From positions 1-51,356 of the forward strand of contig JBBDWO010000003.1 of assembly GCA_040902765.1 (NCBI GenBank): a stretch of 51,356 nucleotides of DNA, given 5' to 3'. How positions within the stretch are numbered: position 1 is the first letter of the stretch; every line of letters begins with the position of its first letter. Positions 2,495 through 14,624 of the stretch are shown one piece after another. This DNA is from Acidimicrobiia bacterium (GTDB lineage Bacteria; Actinomycetota; Acidimicrobiia; Spongiisociales; UBA11373). A model generated the notes under the pieces. It was not told where the DNA came from. It saw nothing but the letters and a program-made list of their open reading frames with translations, and did not search any database. A program made the translations under genes and the position numbers.

Positions 2495-2950
2495 ATGCGT
2501 GGCGTGCTCGCTCTGATGGCCTCGGCAGCCCTGCTGGTCGTGAGTTGCTCCGCTGATGGATCTCGCGCCTACCTGGAGACGGTCGCCGACATCAACGCCC
2601 GGATGGAGGCAGGTACCTTCGCCGCACTCCCCCGCGATGCCGAGCCGACCTGGAGAGCGATCACCGCCGTGGTCGCAGTGCGGGAGGCTGCCGTAGCTGA
2701 GCTGCGGGCCCTGGAGCCACCGGAGAGCCTGGAGATCGAGCACGAGGTGTACACCATATCGCTGCAGGTGCTGGTGGCAGAGAGCCGTCGGTTCCTCGAC
2801 AGCACTGCCGACCTCGACGACACCGGGTTCCTCGTCGCCCTGGGTGAGTCGGTGGATCTCGAGGTGCTCGCCGGCGCCGTGGCCCGGGCGTGCTCGGCGC
2901 TCCAGTCGGCCGCCACCACCACGGGCCACGACACCTACGTTGGGTGCTGA
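2495..2950 (+). CDS. small putative lipoprotein
   Basis: Protein of about 151 residues with a short N-region, a hydrophobic core (GVLALMASAALLVV) and a lipobox ending in VVSC, so it is probably anchored to the outer face of the membrane. The rest is rich in Glu, Ala and Leu and likely helical (TVADINARMEAG, VAELRALEPPESLEIEHEV), resembling small actinobacterial lipoproteins of unknown role. A GTG at 2486 is an alternative start three codons upstream. The stop lies about 40 bp before the phosphorylase gene on the same strand, so the two may be cotranscribed. I do not recognise a specific family. Confidence 0.6.
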   Translation: MRGVLALMASAALLVVSCSADGSRAYLETVADINARMEAGTFAALPRDAEPTWRAITAVVAVREAAVAELRALEPPESLEIEHEVYTISLQVLVAESRRFLDSTADLDDTGFLVALGESVDLEVLAGAVARACSALQSAATTTGHDTYVGC

Positions 2951-2990
2951 GCCAGGGGGCGGGCTCACGCTCCCGACTACGCTCACGCCG

Positions 2991-5900
2991 GTGAGTGGGC
3001 ACCCGAAGGTCCGGTACTCGCTTGACTCCGAGACGTCGACCTTCACCATCGACGGCTACAACCGGGCACCGGCGTTCTCGAATTTCCTCCCGGGTATCGC
3101 GGGTCCGATCGGTATCCCCGCGTGGACCTACTGGGTGAACCGCGGTCAGGCGATCATGGGTCTGGGTGTAGGAGACCGCGACAACCAGATCCTCGAGTTC
3201 TACTCCTTCAACAAGGCGTGCCTCCGCGTCGAGTCCGAGGGCTTCCGCACCTTCGTCCGGGTCGACGATGGCCCGATCTGGGAGCCTTTCCGCCGGGTCG
3301 ACGACCCGGCGGTGTCGCAGCGCCTCGACATGAACCCGAGCGGGCTGTGCCTCGTCGACGAGAATCCGGCGGTCGGCCTGCGCTGTGAGGTCCGATACTT
3401 CGAGCTGACCGGCCACCGGACCGCCGGCCTGGTACGGCATGTGACGCTGACCGATCTCACCGGGCGGACCCGCAACGTCGATTGGATCGACGGCGTCCCG
3501 CGGATCCTTCCCAAAGGAATCGACCAGCACGGGATCAAGAGGTCCGCCCGCCACATCGAGGCCATGATCGAGGTCGTACGACACGAGGACGTGCCGCTGT
3601 TCCGGCTGCGGCAGAGTGCGAGCGACGACGCCGACATCGGCGCGGTCCAGGCGGGCAACGTGTACCTGGTGACCCCGCGGACCGAAGTGGTAACCGACCC
3701 GCTGGTCGTGTTCGGCGATCGCTTCTCGCTCGGGCCCGCGGCGCGGTTCGCCGCAGGCGGAGCCGCGGCCGTCCTCGGCGGCAACCAGGCCACCCGGGGC
3801 ATCACGCCGTGCGCCCTGGCGGTCCATCGCGGGACCCTCGACGGCGCCGGGAGCATGCAGGCGACGTCGTTCATCGGGCGAGCCGAGGAGCTCGGCCACC
3901 TGACCGACCTCCGTGAGGACATGGACACGGCCGGATTCGCCGACCGTGCCGAGCAGGTGGCGCGCCGGGCCGTCGATGCCGTGGCCGACCATGCCTTCAC
4001 GGTGTCGGCCGTTCCCGAGCTCGACGCGTACGTTCGCCAGACGTTTCTCGACAACGTACTGCGCGGTGGCCTCCCGGTCACCATCGACGCCGACCCGCCG
4101 CAGCGGATCAACCTCTACTGGCGCCAAAACGCCGACCTCGAGCGCGATTACCACGACTTCGTGCTCGAACCGACCTACCTGTCCCAGGGGATGGGGCACT
4201 ACCGCAACGTCCTCCAGAATCGACGCAACGACCCGTGGTTCGCCGGGCTGTCCGATCAGGGCGACATCGACCTCCTAATCGGTCTGATCCAGCTCGACGG
4301 CTACAACCCCCTCGAGGTGCGCCACACCGCCTTTCATGTCGATGCCGAGGTGGCGACGCGATGGCTCGCCGACCACGGGGTCGATGAAGGCGGCCGACAG
4401 AGCGTCGCCGGCATCGTTTCGGGCGGCCCGGTGACGCCGGGTCGCCTTCTGATGAGCCTCGACGACGTCGGGATCGATGTCGCCGCCACATGGACGTCGA
4501 TCCTCGCCGACCTGCTCCCCGCTTCGACACCCGCCGAGCCGGGTGGGCGCGAGGCGGGCTTCTGGATCGACCACTGGCACTACAACCTGGACCTGCTCGA
4601 CGGGTATCTCGCCGTCTTCCCGGACCACCTGGAGCGGCTGCTGCTCGATCGACGCCACACCTACTACGACAACCCCGACGTGGTCCTGCCCCGGGCCCGA
4701 CGGGTGGTGGCCCGCGACGGCAGGCTCCGACAGCTCCGCAGCGTTGCCCTCGACGCGGCCAAGGCGGCGATGATCGACGCCCGCGTCTCCGACTCGTACC
4801 GGGCCAGGGACCACCACGGCGCCGGCAAGGTGATCCGGTCGACTCTCCTCGAGAAGCTGCTGCTCCTCGCCGCCACCCGCCTGGCCAGCATCGACATGGG
4901 CGGCCGGGGCATCGACATGGAGGCCGGCAAGCCGGGATGGAACGACTCCCTCAACGGCCTCCCGGGGCTGTTCGGGTCGGGACTCTCCGAGTTGGTCGAA
5001 TTGCATCGGCTACTGACCACCCTGCGCGACTGGCTCGGCGACGTCACCCTGCCGCCAGACGGGATCGAGTTGTTCACCGAGATCGCCGCCTTCGTCGAGA
5101 GTCTGTCGGCCCTCGTCGACGAGGTCGACGAGCCGCTCGAGTTCTGGGTCCGAGCCAACGGGCTCAAGGAGCGATATCGATCGGCTGTCATGCTCGGCGT
5201 CGACGGGGCGCGCCGATTCCTCCCGCCGGACCGGATGGCCGACTTCCTCGAGCGGGCCATCGCCCGGGTCCGCTCGGCGCTCGGGGGCGAGCACGGTGAG
5301 ATCGCGGCCGCCGGCGTGCCCCACACCTACTTCGTCAACGAGGTCACCGCGTGGACCGAGACGGACGACGGACCCCAGCCGACCTCGGTCGAGGCCCGCC
5401 CGATGGGGCTCTTCCTGGAGGGTGCGGTCCACTGGCTCCGCGAGTTCCCCGAGGACGCGGCGACCATGTACGCCGCCGTTCGGTCGTCTGCCCTCTATGA
5501 CAAGCCGCTCGGCATGTATCGGATCAGCACTCCCGGCCGACCCGAGGATGCCGAGGCCGGGCGGGCGGTTGCGGCGTACCCGCCCGGGTGGCTGGAGAAC
5601 GGCTCTGTCTACACCCACATGGAGTACAAGTACCTGCTCGAGGTCCTCCGCAGCGGACTCCATCGCGAGTTCTGGGACGACGCCCGGCACGCCCTCATCC
5701 CGTTCCTCGACCCGGCGACCTACGGGCGCAGCCCGCTCGAAGGCGTGTCGTTCATCGTCTCCAGCCTCCATCCCGATCCGGCCGAGCACGGACGCGGGTA
5801 TCAGCCACGACTGTCCGGCGTGACCGCCGAGTTCCTCCACATCTGGATGCTGGCCACCGTCGGCCGCAGGCCGTTCCGCCTGGTCGAAGGGAGCCTGCGA

Positions 5901-6224
5901 TTCGGCGTCGAGCCGGCACTGCCCGGCGACCTGTTCACCACCGAGGCCATCACCCGTCGGGTCACCTCACGAGATGGGTCGATCAGCACCGTCAAGTTCC
6001 CCGCCGGAGTAGTCGCCACCCGCATCCTCGGTGACGTCTTCCTGGTCCTGAGCAACCCGGGCCGGGCTGACACCTACGGGAAGGGAGCGGCCCGGGTCGC
6101 CGGCTACCGCCTCGACCACCGCGACGGCAGCACGACAGAGATCGACGGACCCGAGGTCGGCGCACCACACGCCGAAGCGGTGCGCCGGCGCTCCGTGCAC
6201 ACGGTCACCGCCCGTCTCGTGTGA
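2991..6224 (+). CDS. large glycoside phosphorylase, GH94/GH161-like
   Basis: Protein of about 1077 residues resembling the long 'cellobiose phosphorylase-like' proteins grouped near GH94 and GH161, which cleave beta-glucosidic links with phosphate to give a sugar 1-phosphate. Recognisable features are an N-terminal beta-rich part (FTIDGYNRAPAFSNFLPGIAG, WTYWVNRGQAIMGLGV) and a central (alpha/alpha)6-type part with GKPGWNDSLNGLPGLFGSG. The Asp of WND (about residue 652) is at the place of the general acid in GH94-type enzymes. There is no signal peptide, so it acts in the cytoplasm. The start is unsure: GTG at 2991 is the first plausible one after the lipoprotein gene, and the 49 codons before it look non-coding. 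The sugar ABC transporter next door and a second phosphorylase at 11.5 kb support phosphorolytic sugar use. The substrate is unknown. Confidence 0.6.
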   Translation: MSGHPKVRYSLDSETSTFTIDGYNRAPAFSNFLPGIAGPIGIPAWTYWVNRGQAIMGLGVGDRDNQILEFYSFNKACLRVESEGFRTFVRVDDGPIWEPFRRVDDPAVSQRLDMNPSGLCLVDENPAVGLRCEVRYFELTGHRTAGLVRHVTLTDLTGRTRNVDWIDGVPRILPKGIDQHGIKRSARHIEAMIEVVRHEDVPLFRLRQSASDDADIGAVQAGNVYLVTPRTEVVTDPLVVFGDRFSLGPAARFAAGGAAAVLGGNQATRGITPCALAVHRGTLDGAGSMQATSFIGRAEELGHLTDLREDMDTAGFADRAEQVARRAVDAVADHAFTVSAVPELDAYVRQTFLDNVLRGGLPVTIDADPPQRINLYWRQNADLERDYHDFVLEPTYLSQGMGHYRNVLQNRRNDPWFAGLSDQGDIDLLIGLIQLDGYNPLEVRHTAFHVDAEVATRWLADHGVDEGGRQSVAGIVSGGPVTPGRLLMSLDDVGIDVAATWTSILADLLPASTPAEPGGREAGFWIDHWHYNLDLLDGYLAVFPDHLERLLLDRRHTYYDNPDVVLPRARRVVARDGRLRQLRSVALDAAKAAMIDARVSDSYRARDHHGAGKVIRSTLLEKLLLLAATRLASIDMGGRGIDMEAGKPGWNDSLNGLPGLFGSGLSELVELHRLLTTLRDWLGDVTLPPDGIELFTEIAAFVESLSALVDEVDEPLEFWVRANGLKERYRSAVMLGVDGARRFLPPDRMADFLERAIARVRSALGGEHGEIAAAGVPHTYFVNEVTAWTETDDGPQPTSVEARPMGLFLEGAVHWLREFPEDAATMYAAVRSSALYDKPLGMYRISTPGRPEDAEAGRAVAAYPPGWLENGSVYTHMEYKYLLEVLRSGLHREFWDDARHALIPFLDPATYGRSPLEGVSFIVSSLHPDPAEHGRGYQPRLSGVTAEFLHIWMLATVGRRPFRLVEGSLRFGVEPALPGDLFTTEAITRRVTSRDGSISTVKFPAGVVATRILGDVFLVLSNPGRADTYGKGAARVAGYRLDHRDGSTTEIDGPEVGAPHAEAVRRRSVHTVTARLV

Positions 6225-6366: not shown

Positions 6367-7659
6367 ATGAGACGCGGGACAATGGGACGATGGTTCGTCC
6401 TGACACTCGCCGTGGCGCTCGTAGCCGCCGCCTGTGGCGACGACGAGGGGACTGACCTGGAGGGCGCAACCATCGAGGTGATGGCCGCGTGGGCCACCGA
6501 CTCGACGGAAGGCGCCAACTTCCAGCTCGTCATCGACGAGTTCGAGTCACAGACGGGGGTATCGGTCACTTACACGGGTATACCGCAGGACATGACCACA
6601 GTGCTGGCGACGCGGGTCGATGCGAACAACCCACCCGACGTGGTGTTCCTGCCCGCCCCTGGCCTGCTGGCCGACCTCGCCGATCGCGGAGCACTCATCG
6701 AGATCGAGGACGAGGTGGGCGACCTGGTCGACGAGAACTACGCGCCGGTGTGGCGCGAACTGGGCTCGTCGGGCGGCACGCTCTACGGCGTGTGGTTCAA
6801 GGGAGCCAACAAGTCGACGGTCTGGTACGACCCGGGGCTGTTCGGCGATGCCGGAGTGACCGCGCCAACAACGTGGGAAGAGTGGGTCCAGGTCTCCAGT
6901 GACCTCACCGACGCCGGAATCGGCGCCATCGCGGTCGGCGGCGGAGACGGCTGGACGCTATCGGACTGGTTCGAGAACGCCTACCTGCGGGTGGCGGGTC
7001 CCGAGATGTACGACTCGCTCCAGACGGGTGCTATCGCATGGACCGACCAGTCCGTGTACGACACCCTCGACTTCCTCGGTCAGATCCTCAACGACGACTT
7101 CATCGTCGGTGGGACGGCCCGCGGACTCCAGGATGGGTTCGTCGCATCGGTGAACACGGTGTTTGCCACCGGCGAGGCTGCCGTCGTGTACGAGGGCGAC
7201 TTCGTGGCTGGCGTGATCATCGGAGAGACCGATGCAGAGCCCGGCACCGGATTCGACTTCTTCGACTGGCCAAGCATGGACGGCTCGCCGCCTGCGGTGA
7301 TGGGCGGTGGCGACGTCGCCGTGGTCCTCAGGGAGAGCGGTGCGGCCTTCGAGTTCCTGCGCTTCCTGGCGCAGCCTGAGTCGGCGGCGATCTGGGCAGC
7401 TCAGGGCGGCTTCTCGTCGATGAACCGGAACCTCGATGTCTCGGTGTACCCCGACGACATCACTCGCCGGGCAGCGGCAGCGCTCGCCCAGGCCGAGGCA
7501 TTCCGCTTCGACATGTCCGACCTGATGCCGTCCGCCTTCGGTTCGACCGTCGGCGCCGGCTTCTGGGGTGGCCTCCAGGCGTGGCTCGGAAATCCGGGCA
7601 ACGTCGATGCCATCCTGGCTCAGATGGAATCGGAGGCGGCAGCAGCCCACGGGGGCTGA
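6367..7659 (+). CDS. sugar ABC transporter substrate-binding lipoprotein
   Basis: Extracellular solute-binding protein of family 1 (CUT1 type), 430 residues. The N-terminus has a signal peptide with the lipobox VAAAC. The body has family-like segments: IEVMAAWATDSTEG, FESQTGVSVTYTG, NNPPDVVFLPAPG, a middle segment around WYDPGLFGDAGVTAPTTWEEW and GEAAVVYEGDFVAG. It would capture an oligosaccharide or glycoside and hand it to the two permeases that follow. GAGAGGAGATG is upstream with suitable spacing for the ATG at 6367. A strong hairpin separates it from the first permease gene, which fits higher expression of the binding protein. The phosphorylases on either side suggest a glucan-derived oligosaccharide; this is inference. 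Confidence 0.85.
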   Translation: MRRGTMGRWFVLTLAVALVAAACGDDEGTDLEGATIEVMAAWATDSTEGANFQLVIDEFESQTGVSVTYTGIPQDMTTVLATRVDANNPPDVVFLPAPGLLADLADRGALIEIEDEVGDLVDENYAPVWRELGSSGGTLYGVWFKGANKSTVWYDPGLFGDAGVTAPTTWEEWVQVSSDLTDAGIGAIAVGGGDGWTLSDWFENAYLRVAGPEMYDSLQTGAIAWTDQSVYDTLDFLGQILNDDFIVGGTARGLQDGFVASVNTVFATGEAAVVYEGDFVAGVIIGETDAEPGTGFDFFDWPSMDGSPPAVMGGGDVAVVLRESGAAFEFLRFLAQPESAAIWAAQGGFSSMNRNLDVSVYPDDITRRAAAALAQAEAFRFDMSDLMPSAFGSTVGAGFWGGLQAWLGNPGNVDAILAQMESEAAAAHGG

Positions 7660-7683: not shown

Positions 7684-7719
7684 CGCATTGGGGAGGGCCT
7701 CCGGGCCCTCCCCAATGCG
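7684..7719. terminator. intercistronic hairpin with UUCG-like loop
   Basis: A 16-bp perfect stem (CGCATTGGGGAGGGCC with its complement) closes on a C-TCCG-G tetraloop of the stable UNCG class. It lies between the binding-protein gene and the permease gene. A partial terminator or mRNA-end stabiliser is the usual role of such a structure. Confidence 0.65.
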
Positions 7720-7769: not shown

Positions 7770-9062
7770 GTGAAGGGCCAGAACCGGGGATGGGTCCTCC
7801 TCTTCCTGCTTCCAGCCCTCGTCGTGATCGGCGCCCTCGTCGTCTACCCGGTCCTCGCCACCATCTGGCGTAGCCTCTTCGACAGTATCGGGACCGAGTT
7901 CGTTGGGCTGGACAACTACCGCCGCATGCTCGAGTTGACCCGCATGCGGCGGGCGATCTTCAACTCGTTCATCTGGGTGGCTGTGTTCCCGATCGCCGTC
8001 ACGACCATCGGCCTGGTGCTGGCAGTCCTCTCCGAGAAGGTCGGCTGGCGCACCGCATTCAGGCTGATCCTGTTCGTACCGGCGGCCATCGCCGCTCTCT
8101 CCTCCGGGATCATCTGGAGGATCATGTACCAGACCGAGCCGTCGCGCGGCGTGGTCAATGCGGTCATCAGCGTTCCGATGTCGCTGGTATCGAGCGAGGG
8201 TGCTTTCGCCGGCGCCGCGCCCTCCTATGACGGCGGCGAGGAGGAGGCCGACGGCTCGATGTCTTTCGCCGTCGACGTCGACGGTGAGGGCGGGGTCGCC
8301 TACCTGGGACTGGTGCGCATCCCGCTTTCGGCGCTCCCCGATGATGCCGTTGCAGCCCGCGATCCCCAGCTGCTCGGCCCGGGGACTCTCAGCGGCGTGG
8401 TGTGGCGCGACACCCGGGCCGGCGAGGACGTCCGGGGGGCCATCGATCCCGAGGAGATGGGGCTCCCGAGGGTCCCGGTGCGAATCATCGACCCTGAGGG
8501 CACCGTCGTCGACACCGTCGAATCGGGTGTCGACGGCACCTTCGAGGTGACCGGGCTCGACCCCGGGCGGTACCGCGCCGTCATCCCGACCAGCCAGTTC
8601 AGCAGTGCCTGGGGCGGGATCCCGTGGCTCGGATCCGACCTGATCACGCTCTCGGCGATCATCGCCGGGATCTGGATCTGGGGCGGATTCGCCCTGATCA
8701 TCATCGGAGCCGGCCTCGCCGCCCTCCCTCGCGAGACCCTGGAGGCGGCGCGAGTGGACGGCGCCACCGAGTGGCAGGTGTTCCGCAGAGTGACCGTCCC
8801 TCAGCTCACGCCGGTCCTGGGCGTCGTTTTCGTGTCGCTGACCATCGGTGCCCTCAAGATGTTCGACCTCATCCTGGGCATCGCTCCCGGGTCGGTGCAG
8901 GCCGACGCCAACGTCATCGCCCTCGAGATGTGGCGTACTTCGTTCAGCGGACTCGGTGAACGAGGGCTCGGCTCGGCGATCGCCGTCTTTCTCTTCGTGA
9001 TGATCATTCCCGTCCTCGCCTTCAACATCAGGCGCTTCCGACTCCAGGAGGGAGGCCGATGA
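7770..9062 (+). CDS. sugar ABC transporter permease with an extracytoplasmic Ig-like insert
   Basis: MalF-type permease, about 430 residues. GTG at 7770 follows GGGAGGGAAG and begins VKGQNRGWVLLFLLPALVV, a typical first segment; the longer frame from 7680 would run through the hairpin. The EAA loop EAARVDGATEWQVFRRVTVPQL identifies the family and the ATPase contact. The odd part is an insert of about 145 residues (roughly 134-277) between transmembrane segments, where usual CUT1 permeases have a short loop. It contains the pattern GVVWRDTR ... PRVPVRIIDPEGTVVDTV ... DGTFEVTGLDPGRYRAVIP, like carboxypeptidase-regulatory or SdrD-B beta-sandwich domains. It is at the position of the MalF periplasmic P2 domain and may dock the binding protein. 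It overlaps the next gene by 4 nt. Confidence 0.85.
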   Translation: MKGQNRGWVLLFLLPALVVIGALVVYPVLATIWRSLFDSIGTEFVGLDNYRRMLELTRMRRAIFNSFIWVAVFPIAVTTIGLVLAVLSEKVGWRTAFRLILFVPAAIAALSSGIIWRIMYQTEPSRGVVNAVISVPMSLVSSEGAFAGAAPSYDGGEEEADGSMSFAVDVDGEGGVAYLGLVRIPLSALPDDAVAARDPQLLGPGTLSGVVWRDTRAGEDVRGAIDPEEMGLPRVPVRIIDPEGTVVDTVESGVDGTFEVTGLDPGRYRAVIPTSQFSSAWGGIPWLGSDLITLSAIIAGIWIWGGFALIIIGAGLAALPRETLEAARVDGATEWQVFRRVTVPQLTPVLGVVFVSLTIGALKMFDLILGIAPGSVQADANVIALEMWRTSFSGLGERGLGSAIAVFLFVMIIPVLAFNIRRFRLQEGGR

Positions 9063-9928
9063 CCGCACCCCCCGAGACCGAACGGCGGTCCATCGTCTCG
9101 CGGTTCACCGCCCTGATCGCCAAGGGCTCGGTTCAGATCACGCTGATCGTGGTCGCCTTCTTCTGGCTGGTGCCGGGGCTGGGCCTGCTCATTACGAGCT
9201 TGCGCCCGGTGCAGCGATACGCCGAGTCCGGCTGGTGGACCGCAGTGACCACACCGGGTGAGCTGACGCTCCAGAACTACGCCAACCTCCTCTCCGACTC
9301 CGCTCTCATCTCCAGTTTCACCACCACCGTCGTCATCGCGGTGGCCAATACCGTCCTGGTCGTCATCCTGGCCGCCATGGCCGGGTATGCCCTCGCATGG
9401 ATCCCGTTCAAGGGACGCGACGCGCTCTTCCTGGTCATAGTCGGGATGCTGGTCGTTCCTCTCCAGATGGCCCTGATCCCGGCGTTCCAGGTGTTCGGCC
9501 TCGTCGGCCTGCGGGGCATCCCGGCGGTCGTGTTCTTCCACACCGCGTTCGGTCTGCCGTTCGCCGTGTTCCTGATGAGGAACTACTTCGCCAGCCTTCC
9601 GAGCAGCCTGCTCGAGTCGGCTCGCATGGACGGCGCCAGCGAATGGCGGATCTTCACCCGGATCGTCCTGCCCCTCGGATTCCCCGCCCTCGCCTCGCTG
9701 ACGATCTTCCAGTTCACCTGGACGTGGAACGACCTGCTGGTGGCGCTCGTTTTCGCCGGTGAACAGCGGCCGCTCACCCTGTTCCTGAGGGACCGGCTCA
9801 ATCAGTTCAGCTCGGGCATCGACGTCATCGCCCCTGGTGTGTTCCTGTCGGCGATCGTGCCCCTGATCATCTTCTTCGCCTTCCAGAGGTACTTCGAGGC
9901 GGGTCTGCTCGGCGGCTCGGTCAAGTAG
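9059..9928 (+). CDS. sugar ABC transporter permease, MalG type
   Basis: Second CUT1 permease, 289 residues. The ATGA overlap with the previous gene indicates translational coupling. It shows the usual first transmembrane segment (ITLIVVAFFWLVPGLGLLITSLRP), a second near AVANTVLVVILAAMAGYALA, the EAA loop ESARMDGASEWRIFTRIVLPLGFP and the closing SAIVPLIIFFAFQRYFEAGLLGGSVK, all characteristic of MalG/ThuG/AraQ-like proteins. It pairs with the preceding permease to form the channel. The ATPase is encoded convergently just downstream beyond an inverted repeat. Confidence 0.9.
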   Translation: MTAPPETERRSIVSRFTALIAKGSVQITLIVVAFFWLVPGLGLLITSLRPVQRYAESGWWTAVTTPGELTLQNYANLLSDSALISSFTTTVVIAVANTVLVVILAAMAGYALAWIPFKGRDALFLVIVGMLVVPLQMALIPAFQVFGLVGLRGIPAVVFFHTAFGLPFAVFLMRNYFASLPSSLLESARMDGASEWRIFTRIVLPLGFPALASLTIFQFTWTWNDLLVALVFAGEQRPLTLFLRDRLNQFSSGIDVIAPGVFLSAIVPLIIFFAFQRYFEAGLLGGSVK

Positions 9929-9946: not shown

Positions 9947-10044
9947 CTAGGGGGTGCACGAATAGGTCGCTGGCTTCATCAGGTTTCGGCTTTGCCACAA
10001 GCCGAAACCTGATCCCCGGGCGAGCCTATTCGCGCACCCCCTAG
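9947..10044. terminator. nested inverted repeat between convergent genes
   Basis: Outer arms 9947-9966 and 10025-10044 match at 19 of 20 positions. Inside them a perfect 15-bp inverted repeat (9978-9992 with 9999-10013) has a 6-nt loop. The right outer arm contains the stop codon of the ATPase gene. The position between two converging genes fits a bidirectional terminator, but two nested stems are unusual. Confidence 0.65.
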
Positions 10045-11249
10045 GCCAGCCGGTCGCCGGTGGCCGGGTCGAAGAGGTGCACCTTCGACGTGTCGACGGC
10101 AAGGGTGATGCGGTCGCCGTCCTCGATCGCCACGTCGGCACTCACTCGAGCCGTGAAGCGGCTGGTGTCCCCCAGCGAGGCGGGTTCGGCCTCGGTGTCG
10201 GCCAATAGCTCCTCGATGTCCGGCGTGATCACCGGGGGCAGGTCGATGGTGAAGTGCACGAAGGACTCCGCCCCGAGCGCCTCGACCACGTCGACTTTGG
10301 CGTCGAGAGTGTTGCCATTGCTCGAAGCGGCGGCGACCCGGCTGTCCTCGAAGTCACCGGGTCGGATCCCGGCGACCACCTCGCGCCCCATGTACTCGGA
10401 GAGGCTGCGGTACCGGGCCACCGCATCGGCGTGCAGCGCCAGCCGACGGCGGCCGAACACCATGTCCACGCCCCCGTCACCGCTGCCCTCGAGGCGGGCC
10501 TTGACGAGGTTCATGGCCGGGCTGCCGATGAAACCGGCAACGAACAGGTTCTTCGGCTCGTTGAAGAGCCGCGAGGGCTTGTCCACCTGCTGGAGGGTCT
10601 CGGGGCGGCGCTCGCTGTAGGGCTTGAGCACGGCGACGCGCTCGCCCAGCGTCATCGCCTCGATCTGATCGTGGGTGACGTACACCGTGGTGGTCCCGAG
10701 GCGGTCGTGGAGCACCGCCAGCTCGGTCCTCATCAACACCCGGAGCTTGGCATCCAGGTTGGACAGGGGCTCGTCCATGAGGAACGCGGCCGGATCGCGC
10801 ACAATCGCCCGGCCCATGGCGACCCGCTGCCGCTGACCCCCCGACAGCGCCCGCGGCTTGCGGTCGAGGAAGTCGCTGAGTTCCAGCAGGACGGCCGCGT
10901 CATTGACCCGGCGCTCGATCTCCTCCTTGGGGCGCTTGGCGAGCTTCAGCGCAAAGCCGATGTTGTCCCGCACCGACATATGCGGATACAGGGCGTAGTT
11001 CTGGAACACCATCGCGATGTCGCGGTCCTTCGGGGCGACGTCGTTGACCACTCGCCCACCGATCTCGATCTTGCCTTCGGTGACTTCTTCGAGGCCGGCG
11101 ATCATCCGAAGGACCGTCGACTTGCCGCATCCCGATGGGCCGACGAAGACGATGAACTCTCCATCGGCGATGTCGAGATCGATGCCGAAGATGGCGCGGT
11201 GACCGCCGGGATAGACCTTGCCGACTCCCTCGAGGGTTATCTCGGCCAT
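10041..11249 (-). CDS. sugar ABC transporter ATP-binding protein (MsmK/UgpC family)
   Basis: ATPase of about 402 residues for CUT1 transporters. Motifs: Walker A GPSGCGKST, Q-loop FQNYALYPHM, signature LSGGQRQRVAMGRA, Walker B AAFLMDEPLSNLD and switch His in YVTHD. A C-terminal MOBP/TOBE regulatory part of about 150 residues follows. ATG at 11249 with GGAG a few bases upstream is preferred; a GTG three codons earlier is possible. It is encoded opposite to the binding protein and permeases and faces away from them, but it is the only such ATPase nearby and completes the transporter. In this family one ATPase can serve several sugar transporters. Confidence 0.9.
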   Translation of the reverse strand: MAEITLEGVGKVYPGGHRAIFGIDLDIADGEFIVFVGPSGCGKSTVLRMIAGLEEVTEGKIEIGGRVVNDVAPKDRDIAMVFQNYALYPHMSVRDNIGFALKLAKRPKEEIERRVNDAAVLLELSDFLDRKPRALSGGQRQRVAMGRAIVRDPAAFLMDEPLSNLDAKLRVLMRTELAVLHDRLGTTTVYVTHDQIEAMTLGERVAVLKPYSERRPETLQQVDKPSRLFNEPKNLFVAGFIGSPAMNLVKARLEGSGDGGVDMVFGRRRLALHADAVARYRSLSEYMGREVVAGIRPGDFEDSRVAAASSNGNTLDAKVDVVEALGAESFVHFTIDLPPVITPDIEELLADTEAEPASLGDTSRFTARVSADVAIEDGDRITLAVDTSKVHLFDPATGDRLA

Positions 11250-11465
11250 GCGCTCCACTCCCGACCGCTCGGCGACTCGCCAGCCATCCTACCCATCGGC
11301 TCCTCGGCGCCGCCGGGACGGGGGCGAGCCACTAGCGTATTCCGCTGTCCCCGAAGAGGTCCCACCTGCCGTGTCGCTGCGTCGAACCAGTTCCCGCCCG
11401 ACTCGCTCGAGCTCCTTCGACCGCCGCCCGGGTGGGTCGCCGGTCTCACCGTCTCGGTGCCACCG

Positions 11466-14400
11466 ATGACGGCGCGTTTGGTGATCGGCAAGCGGGACTT
11501 CGACGCCATCATCTTCGACATGGACGGGGTGGTCACCGACACCGCCCGAGTGCACTTCGCGGCATGGAAACGCCTCTTCGACGACTGGCTCGTCGGGGCG
11601 ACGGGGCCAGGGGTCGATACCCGCCCGTTCACCGAAGACGACTACCACAAGCTCGTGGACGGTCGCTCCCGCCTCGACGGCATCGTTGCCTTCCTCGCCG
11701 ACCGCGGCGCCCATCTGGAGTCGGGCACTCCCGCGGACGACCCCGGCGATGCGTCGGTGTGGGCACTCGCCAACCGGAAGAACGACCTGTTCCTCGACGC
11801 CCTAGCCGCCGAGCCCGCCGAGGCGCTCGCCTCGTCGGTCGACATCGCCAGGGCGGCCGAGCGAAGTGGGATCGACATCGCGCTGGTTACCGCGAGCCGC
11901 AACCGCGCCGCCGTGCTCGAGTCGGCCGGGCTCGGCTCACTGTTCGAGGTGGTCGTCGACGGCGTCGTGGCAGCCGAGCTCGGGCTGCCGGGGAGGCCTG
12001 ATCCCGCCATGTTCCTGGAGGCAGCGCGCCGGCTCGGCGTGGAACCAGCCCGCGCCGTGATCTTCGAGGACGCCCTGCCGGGAGTCGCCGCCGCTCGTCG
12101 CGGCGGCTTCGGCCTGGTGATCGGTGTCGACCGGTCAGGAGAGCGGACCGAGGAGTTCATCAGCCACGGTGCCGACGACGTGGTCACCGACCTCGCCGAG
12201 GTGGCGGTCGACGGGGCCCCGGCGATGACCGAGCCGGCGACGCTCACCTTCGGCGCCTTCGCTCCCGCCGACGAGGGCCGCCGCGAGGCTCTGTCCACTC
12301 TCGCCAACGGGGTCTTCGGCACCCGGGGGGCGGCACCGGAAGCGCGCGCCGACGGTGTCCACTATCCGGGCACCTACGCCGCCGGCCTGTTCAACCGCCT
12401 GACGTCGATCGTCGACGGTGTGGCGCTGGAGCACGAGAGCATGGTGAACCTGCCCAACTGGCTCCCGCTCACCTTTCGGCCGTTCGACGGCGTCTGGCTC
12501 GGCGAGGACGGACTCCACCTGTCGGGGCGCAGCCAAGAACTCGACCTGCTGCACGGGGAGCTCCGGCGCGAGTTCGTGGTCGAGGATGCCGAAGGCCGCC
12601 GCACCACCGTCGTCGAGCGTCGGATCGTCTCCATCGCCCAACCCAATCTCGCCGGGCTCGTCTGGTACATCACCCCGGAGAACTGGTCCGGGTCCATCCA
12701 GGTCCGCTCGGCAGTCGACGGAACGGTCGAGAACCGCAACGTGCCCGACGAGATCGCGCTCGAGGGCCGCCACATCCGGGTCACCGACCGGGGCACCTCC
12801 TTCCCCGATGAGGCATGGCTGTGTGCCGAGACGGTGCAGTCGCGCCTCCGCATCGCCGTCGCCACCCGCACCCGACTGGCCGCAGACGGCGGGATCCAGG
12901 TCGAGCCCTCGGAGTGGCTTCCCCCCGACGGCGTCGGCCTGATCCTCACCTCACCCGTCGAGCAGGGCCGAACCGTCGTCGTCGAGAAGACGGCTGCCCT
13001 GGCGACGAGCCGTGACCCGGCTATTTCCGAGCCCCTCGATGCGAGCCGGGTCATGTTGGGCGACGCCCCTTCGTTCGACCGGCTCGCCCGTAGACATCAT
13101 CTCGCCTGGCGCCAGCTGTGGCGCGACTGCCGGCTGCTCCTGGAGTCACCGGACCAGGAGGTGTCAGGGATCCTCGACCTCCACGTGTTCCACGTCCTTC
13201 AGACCCTTTCGCCCAATGTCATCGACCGCGATGTCGGCGTCCCGGCGAGGGGCCTGCACGGTGAGGCCTACCGCGGGCACCTGTTCTGGGACGAGCTCTT
13301 CATCTTCCCGTTCCTCGACCTTCGTTTGCCCGACCTGACCCGCGAGCTCCTGCTGTACCGCTACCGGCGCCTGGACGCCGCCCGGCGCAACGCCGCGGCC
13401 GAAGGGCACCGCGGCGCCATGTTCCCGTGGCAGAGCGGCAGCGACGGACGCGAGGAGACCCCCACGCAGCTGTGGAACCAGAAGAAGGGTGCGTGGATGC
13501 CCGACCGATCACGACGCCAGCGCCACGTCGGTCTCGCCGTCGCCCACAACGTCTGGCAGTACCTCGAGGTGACCGGCGACACCGACTTCCTCGTCGGCTA
13601 CGGGGCCGAGATGCTCATCGAGATCGCCCGCTTCTTCGAGAGCCTCGCCGTCGACGATGCCGACGACGGCCGATTCCATATCCGGGGTGTGATGGGACCC
13701 GACGAATTCCAGGACGGATACCCGGGCGATCCGGGTGGCGGGATCGACGACAACGCCTACACCAACGTGCTCGTCTCCTGGCTCCTACGACGGGCAGCCG
13801 AGGCATGCGACCTCCTGCTGCGGAATCACGGGGAGTCGGTGCTGGAGCGGCTCGGAGTCGAGCAAGACGAGCTCGACCGGTGGGACGACGTCAACCGGCG
13901 CCTGTATGTGCCGTTCCTCGACAGCGGGATCATCGCCCAGTTCTCCGGCTTCGACGAGCTGGAGGAGCTCGACTGGGAGGCGTACCGGTCAAAGTACGGG
14001 AACATCGGCCGACTCGATCTGATCCTCGACGCCGAGGGCGATTCGATGAACCGGTACAAGGCGTCGAAGCAGGCTGACGCCTTGATGCTCTTCTACCTGT
14101 TCTCGGCGGACGAACTCACCGACCTGCTGGCGCACATGGGCTACGACTTCGACCCGGAGACCATCCCGGAGACCATCGACTATTACCTGGCCAGGACCAC
14201 CAACGGGTCGTCATTGAGCCGGGTCGCCCATGCATGGGTTCTCGCCCGGGCAGACCGAGAAGCCTCGTGGGCTCTGTTCCGGGAAGCACTCCAGCTCGAC
14301 GTCGCCGACACCCAGGGGGGAACCACCCGCGAGGGGATCCACATGGGGGCGATGGCCGGGACCATCGACATCGTGCAGCGCTGCTACACCGGGATCGAGA

Positions 14401-14624
14401 CCATCGACGGCGTGCTCCGGTTCGACCCCCAGCTCCCCTCACCGCTCCCCCGCCTCACCTTCGCCATCCAATTCCGCGGCCACCGTCTCGACGTCGAGGT
14501 GACCCACCACAGACTGCGGATCCGATCCGGCGACAGCGACGCCCCACCGATCCGAGTGGCGCTCGCCTCCGAACTCCTGGACATGAAGCCCGGCACCACC
14601 ATCGAACGCGACCTACCGCTGTAG
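11466..14624 (+). CDS. beta-phosphoglucomutase / GH65 glycoside phosphorylase fusion
   Basis: Bifunctional protein of about 1052 residues. Residues 1-250 are a HAD-family beta-phosphoglucomutase: nucleophile Asp18 and Asp20 in FDMDGVVTDT, a VTASRNR motif II and FEDALPGVAAARRGGF. The remainder is a GH65 phosphorylase (maltose/trehalose/kojibiose type) with LHGEAYRGHLFWDELF, the FPWQSGSDGREETP segment and the catalytic-acid motif MGPDEFQDG (Glu about 747). Coupling makes sense: GH65 enzymes release beta-glucose 1-phosphate, which the mutase converts to glucose 6-phosphate. M. tuberculosis Rv3400/Rv3401 are the separate counterparts. The start is the ATG at 11466; the open frame runs far upstream, but that part is the antisense of the ATPase gene. 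No clear ribosome binding site is seen. Confidence 0.88.
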   Translation: MTARLVIGKRDFDAIIFDMDGVVTDTARVHFAAWKRLFDDWLVGATGPGVDTRPFTEDDYHKLVDGRSRLDGIVAFLADRGAHLESGTPADDPGDASVWALANRKNDLFLDALAAEPAEALASSVDIARAAERSGIDIALVTASRNRAAVLESAGLGSLFEVVVDGVVAAELGLPGRPDPAMFLEAARRLGVEPARAVIFEDALPGVAAARRGGFGLVIGVDRSGERTEEFISHGADDVVTDLAEVAVDGAPAMTEPATLTFGAFAPADEGRREALSTLANGVFGTRGAAPEARADGVHYPGTYAAGLFNRLTSIVDGVALEHESMVNLPNWLPLTFRPFDGVWLGEDGLHLSGRSQELDLLHGELRREFVVEDAEGRRTTVVERRIVSIAQPNLAGLVWYITPENWSGSIQVRSAVDGTVENRNVPDEIALEGRHIRVTDRGTSFPDEAWLCAETVQSRLRIAVATRTRLAADGGIQVEPSEWLPPDGVGLILTSPVEQGRTVVVEKTAALATSRDPAISEPLDASRVMLGDAPSFDRLARRHHLAWRQLWRDCRLLLESPDQEVSGILDLHVFHVLQTLSPNVIDRDVGVPARGLHGEAYRGHLFWDELFIFPFLDLRLPDLTRELLLYRYRRLDAARRNAAAEGHRGAMFPWQSGSDGREETPTQLWNQKKGAWMPDRSRRQRHVGLAVAHNVWQYLEVTGDTDFLVGYGAEMLIEIARFFESLAVDDADDGRFHIRGVMGPDEFQDGYPGDPGGGIDDNAYTNVLVSWLLRRAAEACDLLLRNHGESVLERLGVEQDELDRWDDVNRRLYVPFLDSGIIAQFSGFDELEELDWEAYRSKYGNIGRLDLILDAEGDSMNRYKASKQADALMLFYLFSADELTDLLAHMGYDFDPETIPETIDYYLARTTNGSSLSRVAHAWVLARADREASWALFREALQLDVADTQGGTTREGIHMGAMAGTIDIVQRCYTGIETIDGVLRFDPQLPSPLPRLTFAIQFRGHRLDVEVTHHRLRIRSGDSDAPPIRVALASELLDMKPGTTIERDLPL

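Follow-up and report, generated by a model that had tools for sequence, protein, structure and literature searches.

An SdrD_B/CnaB-type domain in the core TM3-TM4 loop of an actinobacterial sugar importer permease, with a possible role in binding-protein docking

Introduction

In the maltose importer MalFGK2-MalE of Escherichia coli, the permease subunit MalF carries a big extracytoplasmic insert between two of its transmembrane (TM) helices, the P2 domain. Many sugar importers, for example SugABC, have no P2. A lineage with members in Streptomyces, Streptosporangiales, Thermoleophilia and among uncultured actinobacteria keeps a domain of a different fold in a different loop of a permease of the same family. 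It offers a natural comparison that bears on which extracytoplasmic loops can turn into docking or gating domains and on what these domains add. Movements of the helices next to such loops were described for PotD-PotABC, where ATP-driven opening shifts especially TM3 to TM5 (PMC11414716).

Here, we analysed a permease of this lineage encoded in a contig of an Acidimicrobiia bacterium (GCA_040902765.1, JBBDWO010000003.1; assembly of 2.0 Mb in 35 contigs). The whole stretch of 51,356 nucleotides is referred to as the window.

Results

The permease gene (7770-9062, + strand) starts with GTG just 3' of the purine-rich stretch gggagggagg, and its stop codon overlaps by four bases with the ATG of a MalG-like gene at 9059. 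The 430-amino-acid product combines a BPD_transp_1 domain (Pfam, residues 292-416, E 7.8e-15, 55.5 bits versus a cut-off of 26.4) with an EAA coupling motif (EAARVDGA at 325-332; motif region 322-345, between TM4 and TM5), the combination by which we assigned it to the CUT1-type MalF/SugA subunits. An AlphaFold2 (AF2) model of the whole permease, based on 74 aligned family members, contains six TM helices at residues 6-34, 57-90, 94-120, 289-317, 334-371 and 398-428 (pLDDT 84.7, pTM 0.70). Fold searches with the full model returned matches to the permease part only, the closest solved chains being SugA of the mycobacterial LpqY-SugABC (7caf, 8ja7; Foldseek E 5.9e-9; VIA Z 20.6 over 272 residues), and MalF chains aligned with VIA Z 14.7-19.2.

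The neighbouring genes complete a CUT1 operon. Upstream lies the gene of a substrate-binding lipoprotein (6367-7659, + strand; SBP_bac_1, E 9.3e-29), downstream that of an insert-free MalG-type partner permease (9059-9928, + strand; BPD_transp_1), and a MalK/UgpC-type ATPase, the likely energising subunit, is encoded on the opposite strand (10041-11258, - strand; UgpC model 456 bits, cut-off 432). The gap between the binding-protein and permease genes holds a perfect 16-bp inverted repeat with a 4-base loop (7684-7719, + strand), possibly an attenuator that lowers expression of the permease relative to the binding protein. Directly 5' of the binding-protein gene, a GH161-type beta-glucan phosphorylase is encoded (2844-6224, + strand; start provisional), which is matched by PDB 9qqk over residues 63-1033 (E 1.4e-179) and gave no Pfam match at E <= 0.01. 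GH161 enzymes use beta-1,3-gluco-oligosaccharides and their genes adjoin ABC importers (PMC6484121). This neighbour suggests uptake of beta-1,3-gluco-oligosaccharides in the window, and the permease is best explained as the MalF-type component of a type I ABC importer for gluco-oligosaccharides. Further downstream, 11400-14621 encodes a GH65 enzyme fused in one frame with an N-terminal HAD (beta-phosphoglucomutase-like) domain.

The initial annotation had recognised a sugar permease in which 145 residues are inserted between TM segments. In agreement with this, the AF2 model and the alignment with MalF delimit an insert at residues 139-284 (8184-8621, + strand), between TM3 (94-120) and TM4 (289-317), that is nearly all beta in the model. 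DSSP assigned the first part to strands at 156-158, 164-171 and 174-182 (8235-8318, + strand); the second part is a predicted five-stranded sandwich of the SdrD_B/CnaB type at residues 206-274 (8385-8591, + strand). Modelled alone, residues 139-284 reached a pLDDT of 90.8 and a pTM of 0.86, so the insert looks like a self-contained domain.

A carboxypeptidase-regulatory/SdrD-B pattern had also been proposed, and the comparisons upheld it. By sequence, the sandwich matches the B domain of Staphylococcus aureus SdrD (10ps) at E 1.5e-7. The structural match to the same entry is weaker (Foldseek probability 0.98, but E 0.098), and VIA aligned 70 residues at 2.4 A and 33% identity with a Z of 5.0, below the tool's secure level. 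Since Foldseek returned no match to the insert alone at E <= 0.001 among PDB or viral models, the fold call is one from sequence together with a modest structural match; AF2 models and 10ps both place the domain among the prealbumin-like beta sandwiches. The Pfam scores of the window's permease fall below the curated cut-offs for SdrD_B (residues 209-272, 26.0 bits versus 29.7) and CarboxypepD_reg (21.0 versus 32.3), and relatives pass them: P0002 scores 36.7 bits for SdrD_B and 40.4 for CarboxypepD_reg, and L054 scores 35.7 for the latter. At E <= 1e-3, CarboxypepD_reg was found in 54 and SdrD_B in 52 of the 74 family members.

The insert is net acidic (10 Lys and Arg, 26 Asp and Glu). Isopeptide domains of the CnaB kind are closed by a Lys-Asn/Asp bond. 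The insert has no lysine, and none of its columns holds one in more than 35 of 74 members, so that such a bond is not expected here. In SdrD_B domains, calcium is bound by an acidic, EF-hand-like loop that follows the first strand. At the candidate site of the insert, D214 is present in 74/74, D226 in 65/74 and E229 in 71/74 members, but position 220 is glycine in 73/74 and the loop is longer.

In this permease family, the EAA motif meets the ATPase in the cytoplasm. Because the motif, between TM4 and TM5, is cytoplasmic and just one helix away from the insert, the domain must be outside the membrane. A cytoplasmic position or a lack of a beta-sandwich would have spoken against the first reading of this locus; the position of the EAA motif and the AF2 model gave an outside sandwich.

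The initial annotation further placed the insert where MalF has P2, and this did not hold. In a MAFFT alignment of the 74 members with E. coli MalF, P2 (about 98-258) corresponds to the TM1-TM2 loop of the permease, which is short here, and no large domain lies between the equivalents of MalF TM3 and TM4. The insert instead aligns to MalF 340-360, i.e. the MalF TM5-TM6 loop (P3), between common G..N and W motifs. As MalF has two extra N-terminal helices, 'TM3-TM4' denotes different loops in the two proteins, a trap in the numbering of six- and eight-helix permeases that is corrected here.

To what extent the architecture is shared was assessed in several genome sets. In protein searches, 7 of 395 class genomes (E <= 1e-40) and 23 of 396 sampled genomes of the phylum (E <= 1e-60) yielded permease relatives, all of them with the insert. 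Plasmid records contributed 11 near-full-length matches of 44-48% identity from Streptomyces and Nonomuraea; the five annotated copies examined are named only ABC transporter or sugar permeases, and with such generic names the domain has gone unremarked in them. In named genomes, 568 relatives were confirmed, and the best 80 of them all have the insert; 77 are from Actinomycetota and one each from Chloroflexota, Dormiibacterota and a Bacillota MAG. These 80 lean towards insert-bearing proteins, as they were ranked by whole-protein similarity. Seven of them, in which the ORF ran past the stop (L059, L062, L068, L069, L083, L086, L112), were left out of the family alignments. An HMM of the insert, trained on 73 of the named loci, recognised it in every one of 118 locus hits, of which a few belong to other phyla, and no loss was seen within the sampled clade; not all hits are distinct, L042 and L043 being one gene and L130 the window itself. 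The relatives in class, phylum, plasmid and named genomes rule out a feature unique to the source genome, and conservation in all 118 hits rules out chance or a frame artefact.

Searching with the C-terminal core (278-430) frees the ranking from the bias towards the insert. The result was a sharp step: of the 30 loci examined within the class, the top seven (E <= 3e-46) carry the insert and the other 23 (E 7.6e-39 and weaker) lack it. Within the phylum, the insert is present in 22 of 29 loci and missing from six, and the remaining locus is frame-broken. From the nearest insertless relatives the domain is wholly absent, and an insertless relative has a loop of 21 residues in its place. L217 (G499:C13) was rejected as an insertless relative, because its frame is broken by stops and the alignment retains a remnant of the insert. 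It is a broken copy of an insert-bearing permease, either a pseudogene or the product of a sequencing error.

In 81 aligned permeases, the TM3-TM4 loop falls into three discrete length classes of 14-42, 93-96 and 150-162 residues. The longest class takes in each of the 43 insert-bearing rows, which were chosen by hand from the 118 locus hits and others so as to be diverse; this argues against chance. A tree of these 81 rows without the loop columns, a quick build with long outgroup branches, has a single branch (SH-aLRT 97) that sets 43 of 43 insert-bearing rows apart from the others. The tree fits a single origin of the insert-bearing permease. In class relatives (L168-L184, L186, L187, L012), the same loop holds another kind of insert, 93-96 residues long and with two hydrophobic segments, and the rows with this insert (20/20) form a separate group. 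These permeases are mostly open frames of more than 600 amino acids, with 14-16 hydrophobic segments in the four long ones checked, and seem to merit their own study. SdrD_B-like stretches also occur in a 713-amino-acid frame elsewhere in the source genome (G000:C7:6125-6349) and in a protein with repeated domains in the relative L037; the domain in the permease may have come from proteins of this kind.

That the loop accepts an unrelated insert in a related clade shows that it tolerates insertions. One could accordingly regard the SdrD_B-like domain as a mere aid to folding, stability or permease pairing, or as a tolerated passenger of the lineage. We consider this unlikely in view of the presence of the domain in all 118 locus hits, including those from other phyla, and of the lack of any loss in the sampled clade.

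A survey of how often the insert and a binding protein occur together had been proposed at the outset. Among the best 80 of 568 relatives, every permease gene is immediately preceded by a binding-protein gene, and a MalG-type gene follows in 78; the other two are near a contig end. The insert HMM found no copy of the domain in 79 MalG-type partners or in 79 binding proteins. The enzyme neighbours vary. A GH161 gene is also present in L221 (5370-8522, 52% identity), and no match was found on the 9.4-kb contig of the other close relative, L222. GH65 occurs in the window and in L123. GH13 is found in 8 of the best 80 loci, and each of the five annotated plasmid copies examined from Streptomyces also has it as a neighbour. 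As only one of ten other neighbouring ORFs scanned encodes a sugar-cleaving enzyme (the GH65 of L123), gene context tells little about the substrate in general. The variation between GH161, GH65 and GH13 rules out the insert as a substrate-specific feature and leaves it untied to a single sugar linkage.

Sequence change is faster in the insert than in the core, with a median pairwise identity of 0.42 versus 0.66 (2701 pairs). The conserved positions are of two kinds, those of the SdrD_B fold (G209, W212, D214, G256, F258, G266) and the connectors next to the membrane, in which F277 and G283 inside the insert and W286 and L287 at the core junction are each invariant (74/74). W286-L287 match the motif of insertless relatives, and F277 and G283 lie within the inserted stretch. 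In the alignment, no conserved surface patch was seen beyond fold and connector residues.

These patterns bear on two further explanations. Oligosaccharides are handled by the window's operon, and weak structural similarities link the insert to some carbohydrate-binding modules (7zvo, Z 4.7; 8wc1, Z 4.2), as would fit a module of this type that enriches oligosaccharides at the gate or passes them on there. The conserved aromatic columns (140, 146, 212, 258, 268, 277, 281), however, look like fold or connector positions, no conserved aromatic platform was seen in the alignment, and the differing neighbour enzymes imply no single ligand, which makes such a module very unlikely.

The second explanation is an envelope spacer or scaffold that positions the importer via peptidoglycan, another wall component or a membrane protein. 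SdrD_B/CnaB domains are mostly units of surface adhesins and pili (matches included SdrD, UafA, RrgB and CnaB2), and 77 of the best 80 loci are from Actinomycetota, which are mostly monoderm. A single copy in a loop of fixed length (150-162 residues) is nevertheless unlike a variable repeat stalk, and the invariant connectors favour a rigid mount near the gate, so that we regard a spacer as improbable. Attachment to the cell surface, as suggested initially, likewise found no support: a lipoprotein signal is present in the binding protein itself (LVAAAC, by visual inspection), and the insert has no lysine with which to form a CnaB isopeptide bond.

Discussion

Sequence comparisons and models agree that, in one permease clade with a strictly linked binding-protein gene, the core TM3-TM4 loop holds a constant, folded domain outside the membrane. 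It spans about 145 residues and combines a pair of strands with a sandwich of the SdrD_B/CnaB type. No description of such an insert in a permease was found in the open-licence literature, the scope of our search. Both the domain type and the transporter are known, and what is new is the position at which the one is fixed in the other.

As to its function, the most likely role, to which we give about an even chance, is that of an additional surface for docking of the binding lipoprotein or for coupling it to the gate. Sitting beside the extracellular gate, the insert would offer the lipoprotein an added area of contact and would move with the gate. The conserved connectors would tie the domain to TM3 and TM4, which shift during outward opening of such importers, and because of this junction docking may be coupled to gating. 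The insert would resemble MalF P2 in purpose, starting from a different loop and a different fold. Against such a role stand the faster change of the insert, the lack of a visible conserved patch besides fold and connector residues, and the nearest insertless relatives, which do without the domain. The partial correlation with the binding-protein distances, too, was no stronger for the insert (0.30) than for the core (0.34), as computed from distance matrices of 79 systems without a proper null.

Several known systems help to place the architecture. SugA, the closest solved permease, has about 305 amino acids compared to 430 here, and its alignment skips the insert. PotB of E. coli PotABC has an extra helix in periplasmic loop 2, which matches the TM3-TM4 loop of six-helix permeases; this is a single short helix, in contrast to the folded domain found here (PMC11414716). 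The SdrD B and CnaB domains share the fold and a sequence motif (VW.D ... D..E.G ..., DG.F...L..G.Y) with the insert, which differs as a single copy within a membrane transporter, with a longer D214-D226 loop that is Gly-rich in most family members and, as distinct from CnaB, without an isopeptide bond.

The most instructive comparison is with MalF, a member of the same permease family whose two extra N-terminal helices are absent here. P2 occupies MalF TM3-TM4 (core TM1-TM2), whereas the insert occupies the equivalent of MalF TM5-TM6 (core TM3-TM4) and has an SdrD_B/CnaB fold different from that of P2. Since a related clade filled the same loop with two hydrophobic segments, the core TM3-TM4 loop appears to be a hot spot for insertions. 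With somewhat less than an even chance in our estimate, a docking and gate-coupling domain arose at least twice in these importers, once as P2 of MalF in the core TM1-TM2 loop and once, in the core TM3-TM4 loop, as an adhesin-type SdrD_B/CnaB sandwich with a rigid connection to the helices of the gate.
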